Origin: a virus
DNA: 22,595 bases
IMG/VR virus record: IMGVR_UViG_3300021963_000706
Location: 1 to 22,595 of that record
Strand: one strand, 5' to 3'
The notes under the pieces were generated by a model, which was not told the origin of the DNA, did no database searches, and worked only from the letters and a program-made list of their open reading frames with translations. This document shows, in pieces, positions 3,901-17,936 of the stretch. Each line of letters starts with the position of its first letter. The stretch's first letter is position 1. A program made the position numbers and the translations under genes.

Positions 3901-6900
3901 TGCAACATCAATATCCAATACATTAGAAACCTTAGCAATGTCAGAGAATAAATCTAAATGCTTTCTTGCTTCTTCTGGACCTTTTGTTTCTATCTCGGCA
4001 ACAAACTTACCAGCAGCCTTTTTATTCTTAAACATAGAAGCAATACCTTGAACTTCATTTGCAAATGTACCGCCAAACTTACCAATAATATTTAGCATAG
4101 CATTCATAGACTTCTTGCTCTTACCAAACATTTCTATCATATCCATTAACTGTATTGGGTCAATATTTCCTGTTGCTAATTGCATTTTAAGAGTATATTG
4201 TTGCTCTGACTTAAGGCCAGAATCCTCAATCATTGTTTTGGCTAACGGGGCTACGTCTTCTAAGGCAGTTCCTTTGTACTTCTTTGTTATTGCTTTGTCT
4301 ACACCAGTTTCTAAGGCTTTTCTTGTTGCACCCTCTGATTTTGCAAACTGCTGCTGTATTTGATCTACAGTCTTTTTGTTTTCTGCAAGAAGTCCATTTC
4401 TTTGTTGCAAATAAAGATTAGTTAATCTTTCTGCTTCTGCCTGATTTCCTGCAGCCTTTGCTGATTCAATTTTCTTTTCATATTCTAAATCAAGAGAGTC
4501 AATCATTTGCTGCTGTTGCTCAAGTGCTACCTTGCTCATTGCAACAGATGCTCCAGACGCTTCGCCAATTCTTTGCATTCTTTCTTTTCTACCAAAGAAA
4601 TTACCTGCGATTGCTCCTACTCCTGTACCAAGTACTGCACCTATAGCAGTTCCTATTCCAGGAAGAATTGCACTTCCTATCGCTGCACCAATTCCTGCGC
4701 CTACGCCTGCGCCTGCAAATGTAGATCCTACGGCTTGTGTTAAATCACTTACACCTAAAATGTTAGATTTTCTTCTACCTCTAAATGCTCCAGCCTGACC
4801 TGCTCCTTGTGCAGCAAGATTCATTCTTCCACGAGTTTCTTCAATCATCTTTACTCTTATAGACAATGGATCTTTAACCAAATTTTCACCATTTGGCCCA
4901 AGTAATTCTATCAACTTTGCATTTACCTGAATTCCGAATCCGTAATCTCCAAGTTCCTTGCCAATGTTTCCAGCAATGGATCTTGCCTGTGCTGGTGTTA
5001 ACGAACCAGAAATTACACCAGTAACTAATTGATTTGTTAAATCTGCCTGAGCCTGCTTTTTACCAACTGCCTTTATGTTTTGACCTACTCCAGATAATGT
5101 TGCTTTACCTAAATCTGATTGTACAAAACTTTCACCAAATGTTGTTTTTCCAGACTGTACTTCAAATGGAGAGAATCCCTGTTCTCTTCTTCTTCTCATT
5201 ACCTCGCCAGCACTTACTGTACCCGCAAACTTACTTAATTCTGTTATGGCTTGATTGCTTGACTGGGTGGCCTCTGCCATTTTCATTGCTGCATCTTGTG
5301 CTTTGTCAAATGCCATTCTTGTAGATGTTATTGCATATATTAAAGCACCTAGGGCAACAATAGTTCCGCCAATTTTTGCAGGCATCATTGCAAGCATAGA
5401 TAGTGCCATCAAAGGCATCATTAATTGCTGAGATACTTCTCCAACTTTGCCAGGTGCCATAGAGCCAGCCATAGCAGCCATAGAGAGGCCCATAGCCGCT
5501 CCACCTGCACTCATTCCACGCTTAGGGTTGTCTGGGTCTACTGGCTGCCGTCTAAACCTTCCAAAGAAGCCTCCACCCTTTCCTCCTCCACCACCAGCGT
5601 TTCCTCCAGTTCCTGCACCGCCTGCAATAAACCCAGTTACTGAAGACTCCTTTAGCATTCTCTTTGTAGCAAGATCTTGAAGTCTTGCCTGCTTTTCTAT
5701 TTGTCTACGTAATGATTTTTGAACTGGATCAGTTGGTCCTGTTCCGTATAGTGCTGCTCTTGATGCTGCTGCCTTTTGTGATTGTGTGCCCTGAACTGCA
5801 GCAGCACCTAATTGTTGTCCCGCTGCCTTTGCATCGTCTACATATTCCTTAAGTCCAACAATTGCACCAGATGCAATTTCTCCACCAATCTTTTTTGTAA
5901 CCTTTGACGGAGAGGCAACTTGTGCTCTCTCGGCCATTCCTTCTACTAATCCCTTTTCTGCTAAGTCTACTAAACTAAAGCCTTTCTTCTTGTAGAATGT
6001 AAATCTATCTCCACCTCTACGAATCTTCATTCCATTAACATCTACAGCACCCTTACTTCCTCCACCAGGGGCTGTTGCTAGTCCCGCCATTTTTTGTGCT
6101 GCTTGAGAAATATTAATTCGTGCTTCACCAGCAGTGAGTGCTAATTGATCAAACGACTTAACTAGTCTATTTTCAGCCCCCATTTTTCTACGACCATAGT
6201 CGTATGCTTCTTTAACATGAACATCTGTTATTCTTGTATTTGCATCAAGGCTTGTTAAATAATCTTTCATGTGTGCATCTAGCATAGACAAATCTTGTGT
6301 TGCATCTTGCATTTTTATTCCAGCATTCTTTAATGCAATTCTCCACCTTGAAAGACCTCTTTGATCCCAATCTTGCATAAATTCACCCTTAGCAACACCA
6401 CGACCACCTGGTTTCATTAAGTTATTCATAGAAACTTGTCGTCCATCTACATTAGACATACCAGTTGTTATTCCAAGTTTGCCATAGAGGTTTATCTTTA
6501 GTGTGTTAGCAAACTTCATGGCAACTGCCTCAATTGCTTGCATTGCTCTAGCGCTAACTATTCCTGCAGGAAGTTTCTTTAGCATGGTTGCCAAATCTAG
6601 GGCACCCATTACTCTTGGATTTCCTATATGAGAGAAATCTCCTGCTCCTGGAGTTCCTATTGCAAACTGACTCATTACTCCTCCAGCAATCATGTGTGAG
6701 ATTGCTGGCTTATTTCTTGGATCTTGTGCTGGACCTGCAGGTATTACTGCTTCTCCAGGAGTAAGCATTGCTGGAACTGTATCGGTACCTCTTGCAAAAT
6801 AAAATGGCTTTACCTTCTTGGTTCCAGATGCAAATCCTTTTCTACCCTTACCTACTATTGGACCACCAAAACCTCTTTGTGCTGCTATTGCTCTATTGTA

Positions 6901-13794: not shown

Positions 13795-14922
13795 TTATGC
13801 ATCTGCAGCAGCGTCTGCCCAGGCGATAGCATCTTCTTCTTCCCATTGAATACCGAAGCGAACGAATACAGTGTATTCGATTGTATCTTTCTTCGCAACA
13901 TATTCACGGTTTACGACGATATCACGCTGGAAGCCCCATACACGGTTCTGTGGGAATGTCAAATCGACATATCCTTCAGGGTAGTAAGGAACTTCTTGTA
14001 CATCGATACCTAGAACACGAGTTGTACGTGCTCCACCGAATGTCTGGCCTTGACCATCAAGGTATGCCTGTGTATTTGCATAGGTGTTACCATTCTTACC
14101 AAGTGCCTCAGCGATTGCATCAGACAATGTACCGTTATTCTTAACGATACCTGCGAATGCATCTGTACCTGCATAGAACTTAAGATTATTCTTAAGTGCA
14201 CGATACTTACGTGGCATAGCAAGGATGATTTCTTGCATCTTTTCTGGAGTCCATGCATTATCTACAACAGTAACTGCTGCTTCATGTGAATCTCCATTTG
14301 TCTGGTGCTTGTTAATAAAGCCAGGCATAATTGAAAGGAATGGCGCTGTTGTGCCATCACCATTAATTGCTAGATCTTCAATGTCATTAGCAAATGCATT
14401 TGTCATCAAGCGAACGAGATGATCTTCTAATGCACCCCCCTCGACATTGTCTTCTAGTGCTTCAGCAGAAACTTCCCAATCCAAACGGATTTTCTTTGTG
14501 GTAAGTTCTACCTTAGAGAAGGTTGCGCCAGTGTTTGTGTAATTTCCGAGTGCTTGTGCAGCAGAACGAATAACACGCTCACCAACATTAATCTTCTCAA
14601 GTTCCATGGTGTTTGCTCTCATCGTCACACGACGACCATCTTGGGCGAGAACGGTTGCATCCCATACGTAGTCAATAAAACGACGTGCCTGTTCAGGGCG
14701 TAGGATTCCGCTTGCAGCATCACCCGAAGGATTAACGGCATTTGGACCAGATGTGACACCAAAGTTAGCGTTAGGGATGTTACCAAGTGTATCTGCACCT
14801 GGATCTGTTACACCACCAACACCGCCTGAAGCGAAAGCACCTTGACCTTGATAAAGACCTGGTGTTGTTCCGCCTAGTTCGCCAGATTCTCCTGGCTGGT
14901 TTTTCTTAATCTCTTCCGACAT
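13795..14922 (-). CDS. Major capsid protein, HK97 fold (375 aa)
   Basis: This is the main shell protein. Residues 1-70 are Gly-, Ala- and Pro-rich and probably disordered (GELGGTTPGLYQGQGAFASG). An ARRFIDYVWDATVLAQDGRR segment follows. The HK97-type body runs from about 95: ERVIRSAAQALGNYTNTGAT, WEVSAEALEDNVEGGALEDH (the P-domain helix region), DIEDLAINGDGT, FYAGTDAFAGI and VLGIDVQEVPYYPEG. It closes with RVWGFQRDIVVNREYVAKKD and FVRFGIQWEEEDAIAW, the usual final strands. ATG 14920-14922 has the best SD in the window (TAGGAGGTGA, seven bases away), as expected for the most abundant virion protein. It lies directly after protease-scaffold. No separate delta domain is obvious, which fits a scaffold supplied by the upstream gene. 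Confidence 0.95.
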   Translation of the reverse strand: MSEEIKKNQPGESGELGGTTPGLYQGQGAFASGGVGGVTDPGADTLGNIPNANFGVTSGPNAVNPSGDAASGILRPEQARRFIDYVWDATVLAQDGRRVTMRANTMELEKINVGERVIRSAAQALGNYTNTGATFSKVELTTKKIRLDWEVSAEALEDNVEGGALEDHLVRLMTNAFANDIEDLAINGDGTTAPFLSIMPGFINKHQTNGDSHEAAVTVVDNAWTPEKMQEIILAMPRKYRALKNNLKFYAGTDAFAGIVKNNGTLSDAIAEALGKNGNTYANTQAYLDGQGQTFGGARTTRVLGIDVQEVPYYPEGYVDLTFPQNRVWGFQRDIVVNREYVAKKDTIEYTVFVRFGIQWEEEDAIAWADAAADA

Positions 14923-14945: not shown

Positions 14946-15530
14946 TTAATTAAATAAGTCGGCTGTTTTGAGGAAACGTCCGCCCCATAGGGATTTTTCA
15001 ACCATTTCTGGTTGTTCCTGCACGATCTCGCCTAGATCGCCAGACTTTCGGAATGCTGTATCTGCTTCTACTGCGTCAACACGCTTTCCAAACTTACTAA
15101 CTTGTTCTACTGTTGCAGCAATGTCTTTGGCGACTGCATCAAGTGAACTCTTTACTGCTGCTGTATCTACTTTTGAAGACTTAAGCATTTCTACTTCTGC
15201 CTGCAAAGATTTTACAGTTTCAACTAAATCGCTAAAGGCTGATGTAATTGTATTCTTGATTTCAGCAACTGCTTCAACAATTGCCTCATCTGATTTAGAT
15301 ACTTCTGCTGCTACTTCTGCTGCAGGTGCCTCAACTGATTCCTCAGCCTTAGCAACTTCTTCAGTTTCTGGAGTCTCTTCAGACTTTTCAACAACTTCTT
15401 CAGTTGCTGGAGTCTCTTCAGACTTTTCAACAACTTCTGCAACAACAGTTTCAACTACTGCATCTGCCTCTGGAGCGATCTCTTCTGACTTTGCAACTTC
15501 GACTTCTTCAGTCTTTGGTTTTCTTGCCAT
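14946..15530 (-). CDS. Probable separate scaffold protein from an internal start (194 aa)
   Basis: Within the protease gene, in the same frame, ATG 15528-15530 (residue 251 of the long product, MARKPKTEEVEVAK) is preceded by AAGGAGGA (15538-15545, minus strand), seven bases from the ATG. This is one of the strongest ribosome binding sites in the window and has no reason to exist inside a coding region unless it is used. The 194-residue product would contain only the acidic, coiled-coil scaffold part. The known parallel is lambda, where scaffold Nu3 is made from an internal start in protease gene C. Scaffold is needed in large excess over protease, so the arrangement makes sense. Usage is inferred, not proven. 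Confidence 0.68.
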   Translation of the reverse strand: MARKPKTEEVEVAKSEEIAPEADAVVETVVAEVVEKSEETPATEEVVEKSEETPETEEVAKAEESVEAPAAEVAAEVSKSDEAIVEAVAEIKNTITSAFSDLVETVKSLQAEVEMLKSSKVDTAAVKSSLDAVAKDIAATVEQVSKFGKRVDAVEADTAFRKSGDLGEIVQEQPEMVEKSLWGGRFLKTADLFN

Positions 15531-16280
15531 AGGATTATCCTCCTTCGTTATCTTAGCATCAATGCCTTTAGCACTATCTACTAAGAATTTGACTATATCT
15601 GTTTTTTCGTTGTCTTCTTTTTCAACGAAACCTATATTTTTCATCTGCTCTCCAGTTACTGGACTTACTGCAGATTCTTGATCTGAAACTATAACAATTC
15701 CAGATTCTTGATCATAAAAAACATTTTCTAATTCAACATCTTGACCTTTGACAACTTCAATACCATCAACCTTTTCGACATGCATTATATTTGCAAATTG
15801 ATTTGCTGGAGAGTCTACTAATGAGAGTTCTACAAGATCATAATCTTTAATAATTCTAATTGTGGAATCTGATTTCTCATCATAACCATCATCCCACTTA
15901 TTCATACGGCCACCAATTGAAAATCCTGTTAATGTACCGTCCAAAACTTTTTCCCATGTATCCTGTGCACCTTTTGAAACATATGCAGATACAAAAACAC
16001 CAGAATAAAACTTCTTAGATTCTGGATCAAAATATCTATCTTCTTTAAAATTTACCATCTTGCCAACAGCAAGTGGCTGATGCATTTCACGAATATTTCC
16101 ACGAAACTTTGAAAATGCTTTCATTGATGCTTCTGCTGTAACTATATCGCCTTGTTTATCAATGTTGTCAAGGGATGCAAAGCCTGATACAATACGGCGT
16201 TCTTTATCTACCTTCGCAAAAGGAAGGGAAAGGCGAACATTCTCGCCCTCTGTATTCCAATGGGCTTTTGATATAGTCAT
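14946..16280 (-). CDS. Prohead protease fused to scaffold (444 aa)
   Basis: The N-terminal half is an HK97-type (U35/S78, herpesvirus-protease-like) prohead serine protease, which cleaves scaffold and capsid during maturation. From ATG 16278-16280 the signature runs VDKERRIVSGFASLDNIDKQ then GDIV; candidate catalytic residues are H67 (REMHQPLAVGK) and S121 (LTGFSIGG), with an acidic residue in VELSLVDSPAN (about 151-156) as a possible third member. After about residue 250 the protein becomes acidic and helical (MARKPKTEEVEVAKSEE), with a predicted coiled coil near 345-380 (DLVETVKSLQAEVEMLKSS). It ends in EKSLWGGRFLKTADLFN and looks like a scaffold. A TTG eleven codons further upstream is possible, but that would start inside the promoter and DnaA-box region. 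The ATG lies ten bases after TATAAT and has no SD, fitting a near-leaderless mRNA. Confidence 0.92.
   Translation of the reverse strand: MTISKAHWNTEGENVRLSLPFAKVDKERRIVSGFASLDNIDKQGDIVTAEASMKAFSKFRGNIREMHQPLAVGKMVNFKEDRYFDPESKKFYSGVFVSAYVSKGAQDTWEKVLDGTLTGFSIGGRMNKWDDGYDEKSDSTIRIIKDYDLVELSLVDSPANQFANIMHVEKVDGIEVVKGQDVELENVFYDQESGIVIVSDQESAVSPVTGEQMKNIGFVEKEDNEKTDIVKFLVDSAKGIDAKITKEDNPMARKPKTEEVEVAKSEEIAPEADAVVETVVAEVVEKSEETPATEEVVEKSEETPETEEVAKAEESVEAPAAEVAAEVSKSDEAIVEAVAEIKNTITSAFSDLVETVKSLQAEVEMLKSSKVDTAAVKSSLDAVAKDIAATVEQVSKFGKRVDAVEADTAFRKSGDLGEIVQEQPEMVEKSLWGGRFLKTADLFN
15361..15438 (-). repeat. 39-bp tandem duplication in the scaffold region
   Basis: Two adjacent 39-base units, 15361-15399 and 15400-15438, are identical except for one base (TTTC versus TTGC in plus-strand reading). 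They encode two copies of EVVEKSEETPxTE. It is a recent in-frame duplication in the acidic, disordered part of the scaffold, where length changes are likely tolerated. Confidence 0.92.
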
Positions 16281-16290
16281 ACTAGTATAT

Positions 16291-16320
16291 ATTATAGAGC
16301 CTTTTTTACACAAATGTTAA
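16291..16320 (-). promoter_or_regulatory. Near-consensus promoter upstream of the protease gene
   Basis: The minus strand has TTAACA (16315-16320, one mismatch to TTGACA), an 18-base spacer, and a perfect TATAAT (16291-16296). The ATG at 16280 is ten bases after the -10, so the transcript would begin about three or four bases before the ATG. This is the only site in the window with both good -35 and -10 hexamers. It sits among three DnaA-box-like sequences. Confidence 0.6.
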
Positions 16321-16346
16321 TAAATTGTGAATAAAGTTGTGGATAA
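16304..16346. promoter_or_regulatory. Cluster of DnaA-box-like sequences between portal and protease
   Basis: Two perfect matches to TTATNCACA lie on the minus strand, TTATCCACA at 16338-16346 and TTATTCACA at 16326-16334, in the same orientation and separated by three bases. A relaxed match TTTTACACA (TTWTNCACA) lies on the plus strand at 16304-16312. The surrounding gap is very AT-rich. The first box abuts the portal stop codon, and the third lies in the spacer of the promoter. This could be a DnaA-bound replication or regulatory site. The consensus match is directly visible; binding is inferred. Confidence 0.5.
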
Positions 16347-17936
16347 CTATTGGGTTGATCTACCCTCGCCTTTTGGATTCCTACCAGTTAAAGTGGCAGG
16401 TCCGTCAGACTGATTGTTAACTCTTTCTCCATCCCGTGCACGTTGAGCAGTGTCTTCTGGCTTAGGGCTGAAAGGCTCGTCTCCCCCCTCTCTTTGTGGA
16501 AGTCCAAGTGCTGATCTGGCTTCATTTGGAAGCATGACCTGTGCCTTTACATATCTTTCTAAAATCTGAGACTGTGCTATTTCATCTGTTAATGTAAGTT
16601 CTTTAAACTTTAATACCAGAACATCTGTTTTTTCTTTAACTATCTTATTAATAATTTTTTCTAGTTCTCTTTGTGCTGGACGAGATACTTGTTCTTTAAA
16701 TGTACGGTCTTGAGCAAGTGCTGCTGCTATAGCGCCAGAGTCCCCTCCACCTATTTTTGAAAGAGGTACTTGATGTGCAATTAATATGTCGTCACGATTC
16801 TGTTTGCGATATTTTTCAAACGAACCTTCTTGGACACCATTCTCTATAGGCTCCATCTTAAACTCAACCTTATTTGAATCAGTATCTCCTGGAAGAGGGA
16901 TATATAAGGTTCTATGAGATTGCCCCTTAAGTCCTGTTTGTAAAAATCTAAACATCTTATCTTCTGCATCTGCAGATAATTTTGCACCCTTTAGTGTCAC
17001 AACATAACGAGGGACAGCCTTATTGCTAAAGTAGTCAATGTTATATTGTGACGCTAACTGGTCTCCATGGAGCGAGTTTATTGCCGACATTATATCTGGT
17101 ACACCATAAAAAGTATTTAAAGGCGAGTACTGTTTAAAGTGTATGATTTCATTTGGCCTTGGATCCGATGTAACTGGATTTGGATTTTTTGCACCAAAAT
17201 TTCTAAAATAAACAACCTTGCTTCCTATAATTTGTACATAGCCATCACGTAGTCTTCGTACACGCATTGTAGTTGCTGGAATATGACCTATATAACCAAT
17301 CTCTCCACGTGTTGTACGACCAACTTCAAGATAACCATTTCCAACTGCCTGTACATCTGTATATACCTTCATCATTGTTGTTGTAAATGAATCATCATCA
17401 TTTAGTGATTCAAGCCATTCGTGCATCTCTATCTTTGCACGTTCAATTCTGTTTCTTGCTCTTTCTACCTGTCCAGAATCTTTATTTGATTCAAGTCTTA
17501 GCATTGTGCTTGGCGATACTTCAAAGTCATAGCCCAAACCAACAATGTTTTCTACCTTGGCATCAATTGCAGCATGATTAGCAAATGATGTATCATAATA
17601 ATTTGCCAACTCATATACATTCCATGGTGGTGTGATTACATCGAATAGTCCGTAGCCATTTCTATATACCGTGCCAGGATTAATCTCTTTTGACTTTGCA
17701 TCTCCCAATCCATGTTGCTCTGCTCTTGCGCTATCAATATATCCTTGAGTTGGGTCATTGGCAGTTGCTTTTTCAATTAAGCGAGATGTTCTTCTTTTAA
17801 AATTATTATCTAATCCAGAATATGACTTTAAATCTGTCCAAGATTTGTTAAATGGGTCTGCTGCTTTAAATTCGTCTGATGCTCCAACTGGGGTGTCTAT
17901 TCTGGCACCAATTAAATATTCTCTTTCTTCTGACAT
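16347..17936 (-). CDS. Portal protein, HK97/PBSX family (529 aa)
   Basis: The portal forms the dodecameric ring at one capsid vertex through which DNA is packaged and released, and where the terminase and then the neck dock. Recognisable blocks are the stem and clip region from about residue 240 (EIIHFKQYSPLNTFYGVPDI), the following helix (MSAINSLHGDQLASQYN), YFSNKAVPRYVVTLKGAKL, DDILIAHQVPLSKIGGGDSG near 400, and a long C-terminal helix with AQRELEKIINKIVKEKTDVL. The last 50 residues are polar and probably disordered. The length of 529 is usual for the family. ATG 17934-17936 overlaps the upstream stop as TAATG, with GGAG ten bases before it. The terminase large subunit, normally just upstream, is absent here. 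Confidence 0.95.
   Translation of the reverse strand: MSEEREYLIGARIDTPVGASDEFKAADPFNKSWTDLKSYSGLDNNFKRRTSRLIEKATANDPTQGYIDSARAEQHGLGDAKSKEINPGTVYRNGYGLFDVITPPWNVYELANYYDTSFANHAAIDAKVENIVGLGYDFEVSPSTMLRLESNKDSGQVERARNRIERAKIEMHEWLESLNDDDSFTTTMMKVYTDVQAVGNGYLEVGRTTRGEIGYIGHIPATTMRVRRLRDGYVQIIGSKVVYFRNFGAKNPNPVTSDPRPNEIIHFKQYSPLNTFYGVPDIMSAINSLHGDQLASQYNIDYFSNKAVPRYVVTLKGAKLSADAEDKMFRFLQTGLKGQSHRTLYIPLPGDTDSNKVEFKMEPIENGVQEGSFEKYRKQNRDDILIAHQVPLSKIGGGDSGAIAAALAQDRTFKEQVSRPAQRELEKIINKIVKEKTDVLVLKFKELTLTDEIAQSQILERYVKAQVMLPNEARSALGLPQREGGDEPFSPKPEDTAQRARDGERVNNQSDGPATLTGRNPKGEGRSTQ

Follow-up and report, generated by a model that had tools for sequence, protein, structure and literature searches.

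DnaA, the host replication initiator, is already known to act as a transcription factor, both on host genes and in the replication of lambda. In E. coli, box pairs are high-affinity DnaA sites, DnaA prefers pairs 2 or 3 bp apart with a fourth base strongly reducing binding, and the double boxes of the DnaA regulon need both boxes (PMC11317965). Boxes of the TTTT type bind E. coli DnaA well only when they carry C at position 5 (PMC5835720). The nrdAB genes of E. coli can be activated by DnaA and are repressed by high DnaA-ATP (PMC8203912), and the region upstream of nrdA contains TTATCCACA-AAG-TTATGCACT followed directly by a -35-like TTGCAA. For phage lambda, DnaA-stimulated transcription is attributed to Szalewska-Palasz et al. 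1998, as that work is cited in PMC8203912. In the literature searched, no promoter of phage structural genes was described as controlled through a double DnaA box. The box rules applied here are those of E. coli.

Layout of the portal-protease gap

The window, i.e. the whole stretch of DNA analysed, is a 22.6-kb IMG/VR fragment with portal, protease and capsid genes on its minus strand. The portal protein gene (16347..17936; phrog_12, E=1.4e-52) lies upstream of a predicted promoter, which is followed first by the head maturation protease gene (14946..16280; phrog_9427, E=2.6e-116) and second by the major capsid protein gene (13795..14922; phrog_1623, E=2.9e-71, with phage matches annotated as major capsid protein). 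A gap of 66 bases (16281-16346) runs from the portal stop to the protease ATG and reads on the minus strand TTATCCACA-ACT-TTATTCACA-ATT-TATTAACA-TTTGTGTAAAAAAGGCTC-TATAAT-ATATACTAGT-ATG. DnaA box 1, TTATCCACA (16338..16346, minus strand, centre at about -58), abuts the portal stop codon and is followed by the 3-bp spacer ACT (16335..16337, minus strand) and by box 2, TTATTCACA (16326..16334, minus strand, centre at about -46), with both boxes kept across the 48 long-gap alleles described below. These are the two perfect same-orientation boxes, 3 bp apart and directly after the portal stop, that an earlier note on this DNA had reported, and their presence is confirmed. Both match TTWTNCACA on the same strand, their separation falls within the 2 or 3 bp of a double DnaA box, and the pair stands just upstream of a sigma70 -35 element, the nrdAB-type arrangement.

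Box 2 ends 5 bp from the -35 hexamer TTAACA (16315-16320), which is itself included in a box-like third repeat, TTATTAACA (16315..16323, minus strand), and the -10 element TATAAT (16291..16296, minus strand) lies 10 nt before the protease start codon. This promoter, TTAACA-18-TATAAT, is the best sigma70-like match among 43 promoter-like matches in the 10.6 kb scanned, bearing out the earlier proposal of a near-consensus promoter for the protease and capsid genes within the gap. The box centres assume a transcription start 7 nt past the -10 element, which would place the start codon at about +5, and the head-gene mRNA is probably near-leaderless, given that TATAAT is found 4-10 nt before the start codon in 96 of the 96 alleles compared. 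A relaxed box, TTTTACACA, had also been noted as facing the pair from 14 bases away. It is present on the plus strand (16304..16312) within the -35/-10 spacer, at a distance of 13 bases, and as a third DnaA box it is doubtful. The motif is intact in 41 of the 48 box-pair alleles, but all 7 deviations lead away from the consensus, so that it finds no support as a functional DnaA box and is probably promoter spacer sequence.

Frequency of boxes and box pairs

The supposition that perfect boxes are rare by chance, and two together more notable, held only in its second half: single TTWTNCACA boxes are not rare in the window (5 vs 3.9 expected), but two boxes on one strand, with starts separated by 9-40 bp, turned up in just 4 of 400 versions of the window simulated with a first-order Markov model. 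Across 12 long relatives (contigs of 93-123 kb, approximately 1.34 Mb in total), single relaxed boxes were not enriched (217 vs 230 expected), and TTATCCACA itself was enriched approximately fourfold (75 vs 18.6 expected), with 3-10 sites per relative and few per locus. Same-strand pairs with starts 11-13 bp apart numbered 23 in these relatives, compared to approximately 0.03 expected, with many of the 23 being homologous between genomes and hence not independent events. Start distances of up to 60 bp fell at 11 bp (5 pairs) and 12 bp (18 pairs), with none at 13 bp and six singles scattered elsewhere, and 300 permuted motifs never produced more than one pair at 11-12 bp in the same 12 relatives. 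Genome G001 alone contains three pairs at three places, compared to none in 30 shuffles.

Conservation of the box pair

Relatives were collected by a capsid search and by a promoter-sequence search of viral contigs, and 96 distinct sequences upstream of the protease start codon were compared. Upstream of the shared -10 element, these were of four kinds, with 48 carrying the box pair, 18 short and box-less, 13 carrying TGTCC repeats, and 17 others. The pair is retained in all 48 distinct long-gap alleles, in every one of which box 1 is TTWTNCACA or a variant of it at position 1 or position 6; two boxes are perfect in 40 of these alleles, one in 7 and none in 1. The -35 TTAACA is retained in 42 of the 48, and in L140, L158 and L180 box 2 is located on the -35 position itself. 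Variation is almost confined to TTWTNCACA positions 1, 3 and 5 and to the spacer: mean diversity across the 48 alleles is 0.010 at the six core box positions, but rises to 0.34 at positions 3 and 5, where the motif is degenerate, and to 0.52 in the inter-box spacer, the sequence of which is free, while fourfold-degenerate sites of the flanking genes show a diversity of 0.30-0.44. Spacer length is 3 bp in 41 alleles and 2 bp in 7, and never otherwise. In 26 of 26 perfect boxes that begin with TTTT, position 5 is C, whereas TTAT boxes take T, C, A or G there. Judged from these alleles, the pair is under clear constraint where present and follows DnaA's own base and spacing rules, as both the pattern at positions 3 and 5 and the 2-3 bp spacing match the E. 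coli data. This natural variation over approximately 50 alleles constitutes an independent test of the E. coli spacing and base rules.

The 18 short alleles (39-40 nt), which belong to close relatives, keep the same -10 region and promoter without the boxes. When the portal and protease ends were placed on a tree, alleles with the boxes were scattered among the short ones, and well-supported branches forced a minimum of three changes of box label; the pair therefore behaves as an optional upstream module that can come and go while the promoter persists. Conservation of the gap, a further point raised in the earlier note, is thus found as constraint within the 48 box alleles but does not extend to some close relatives, which have no boxes; by the standard that the note itself had set, this absence counts in part against the finding. 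Close relatives that differ in having or lacking the boxes amount to a natural experiment. In another 13 alleles (L031, L043, L055 and ten others), a tandem TGTCC-N4-TGTCC replaces the DnaA boxes at the portal-protease gap; these alleles have no good -35 element (best score 2.85 of 6), and the same repeats are also found in early regions of other relatives.

Box pairs and host-type operators elsewhere in the phage group

The phages of this group are large, come from fresh water and probably have actinobacterial hosts. WhiB, which is indicative of such a host, was found in 11 of the 12 long relatives and in phage Jada, and among cultured phages the nearest are Streptomyces phages of Stanwilliamsviridae (portal approximately 46% identity). 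In Jada, Ankus, Annadreamy and DekoNeimoidia there is a conserved noncoding region with a TTATCCACA pair whose starts are 12 bp apart and with a third box approximately 255 bp from the pair (L216:3118-3410; L217:2991-3265, minus strand; L254:411-686; L257:401-676). This Stanwilliamsviridae element, which the pair and the third box flank, had no Rfam match in L216, and its inner part is common to the tectivirus Forthebois and the Arthrobacter phage Amigo. As Stanwilliamsviridae have a pair elsewhere, and as the portal gene of Jada leaves no space for boxes behind it, the comparison indicates that DnaA-box pairs are an old feature of the group and that their use at the head promoter is the feature of one clade.

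The other pairs in the relatives occur mostly in one noncoding region, referred to here as region A, or upstream of early genes. Region A contains a double DnaA box beside three AGTGG repeats with a 10-bp period and many AAACC/AAACCAT repeats, and was located at G001 5677-5760 (L084), G002 67273-67355 (L093), G018 near 40969-41050 (L232) and G012 4967-5049 (L103). The 26-base AGTGG motif lies exactly in front of an apparent mraZ gene in a deltaproteobacterial MAG, the protein start of which is MraZ-like by eye, and on this basis region A looks like an MraZ-type operator next to a double DnaA box; it may act as the origin of the phage or as a decoy that captures host regulators. A Chitinophagaceae MAG contig (L212, CANGYR010000020.1) also carries the phage double-box/MraZ region, and is probably a misbinned phage contig. 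CRP-like palindromes of the form TGTGA-N6-TCACA are represented by 45 sites in the 12 long relatives, compared to approximately 2 expected, and the GGCGTGTCG motif (42 vs 0.8 expected) and TGTCC-N4-TGTCC (36 vs 2 expected, both strands) are likewise enriched. Early regions, e.g. G001 near 16261 and 18362 (L084), contain perfect CRP/GlxR-like palindromes and GGCGTGTCG motifs, some near DnaA boxes. Rfam returned only tRNAs in the stretches searched. A tentative generalization, which we consider possible rather than probable, is that these large actinophages wire their promoters to host cell-cycle regulators through DnaA double boxes, MraZ operators and CRP/GlxR-like palindromes in intergenic places that are conserved, with DnaA occupancy, shifting as phage copies titrate the protein, switching capsid transcription.

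Proposed regulation of the head promoter

It is reasonably probable that host DnaA binds the double box, most likely activating an internal head promoter and coupling capsid output to replication. Binding to the pair would be cooperative and would place DnaA immediately before the -35 hexamer of an internal promoter of the sigma70 type, predicted to drive the protease and capsid genes; from -62 to -42 DnaA would most likely help RNA polymerase. Owing to several other high-affinity DnaA sites in each genome, occupancy at the head promoter would change as phage copies accumulate, and this change would couple capsid output to replication. We infer the binder, the activation and the coupling from what was observed of the sequence, its selection, its layout and its recurrence. 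The favoured effect is activation, since the pair occupies a position at which activators touch polymerase, and since in a clade whose -35 element is poor the corresponding place is taken by another repeat module; the position suggests activation and falls short of proof. DnaA does not appear to be essential at the promoter, since box-less sister alleles keep it. DnaA domain IV (PF08299) was not found in the genomes of 6 relatives, nor were MraZ (PF02381) and CRP-type HTH (PF13545) in the 12 relatives and Jada, so that the proteins binding these sites are presumably the host's. The phage sigma factor domain PF04545 was not found in the 12 relatives, with one sub-threshold match in Jada. The earlier suggestion of host DnaA control over the head genes is therefore retained in part: the pair is selected and belongs to the protease/capsid promoter, and DnaA-linked control is the best reading of it. 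If this is true, these phages sense or exploit the host replication initiator to time virion production.

The main rival to activation is repression relieved by titration, which we regard as rather unlikely. DnaA on the double box would block the region contacted by the polymerase alpha subunit, and phage replication, by multiplying the DnaA sites, would titrate the protein away and so free capsid expression late. The distance of only 5 bp between box 2 and the -35 element, and the alleles in which box 2 overlies it (L140, L158, L180), are consistent with such a block, as are the 3-10 TTATCCACA sites in each of the 12 long relatives and the repression of nrdAB by high DnaA-ATP (PMC8203912). 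However, the boxes stand outside the polymerase core footprint, on the upstream side where activators are usually found, and the TGTCC repeats found at the same place alongside a poor -35 element (2.85 of 6) suggest activator modules. The approximately fourfold enrichment of TTATCCACA (75 vs 18.6) could instead indicate that the sites are mainly a DnaA sink, blocking new initiation on the host chromosome and placed at the promoter only incidentally, and pairs are indeed high-affinity sites in E. coli (PMC11317965). This is quite unlikely, as there are few pairs per genome, a sink need not sit at promoters, and the head pair keeps a constant distance from a single promoter and is either retained or missing as a unit.

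The pairs might also be bound by a phage-encoded regulator with a DnaA-like sequence preference and not by host DnaA. Many proteins of these phages are unannotated and 11 of the 12 relatives encode WhiB, but DnaA domain IV was absent from the 6 genomes searched and the permitted variation and spacing match DnaA itself, making this slightly less probable still. A phage replication origin within the gap, offered as an alternative in the earlier note, would be in keeping with perfect DnaA boxes inside an AT-rich gap. It is nonetheless very improbable: there are two boxes only and no other repeats, the GC skew does not turn at the gap, boxes are absent in close relatives (18 alleles), the Jada gap has only a few bases at the portal end, and larger box-bearing noncoding regions elsewhere are better candidates.

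Comparison with known systems

The 2-3 bp spacing is shared with double boxes of the E. coli DnaA regulon (purH, polA, mutH/DARS2, mioC), a set defined with E. coli as host and having no phage promoter among its 16 bound regions (PMC11317965). Clustered high-affinity boxes also recall a datA-type titration locus, unlike which the window has a single pair fixed at a promoter. In phage lambda, where the promoter concerned is pR, DnaA is used for origin transcription and replication genes, whereas in the window the promoter belongs to structural genes and has a tandem pair ahead of its -35 element. The likeness to lambda lies in host DnaA serving a phage as a transcription factor. The nrdAB arrangement recurs here, with two same-strand boxes, TTATCCACA first, a 3-bp spacing and a -35 element just beyond the second box. 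Unlike nrdAB, which is a chromosomal ribonucleotide reductase gene and in E. coli has its boxes approximately 6 bp closer to the start site, the pair in the window appears to serve a phage capsid operon, from a promoter much better than that of nrdAB and with almost no 5' leader.
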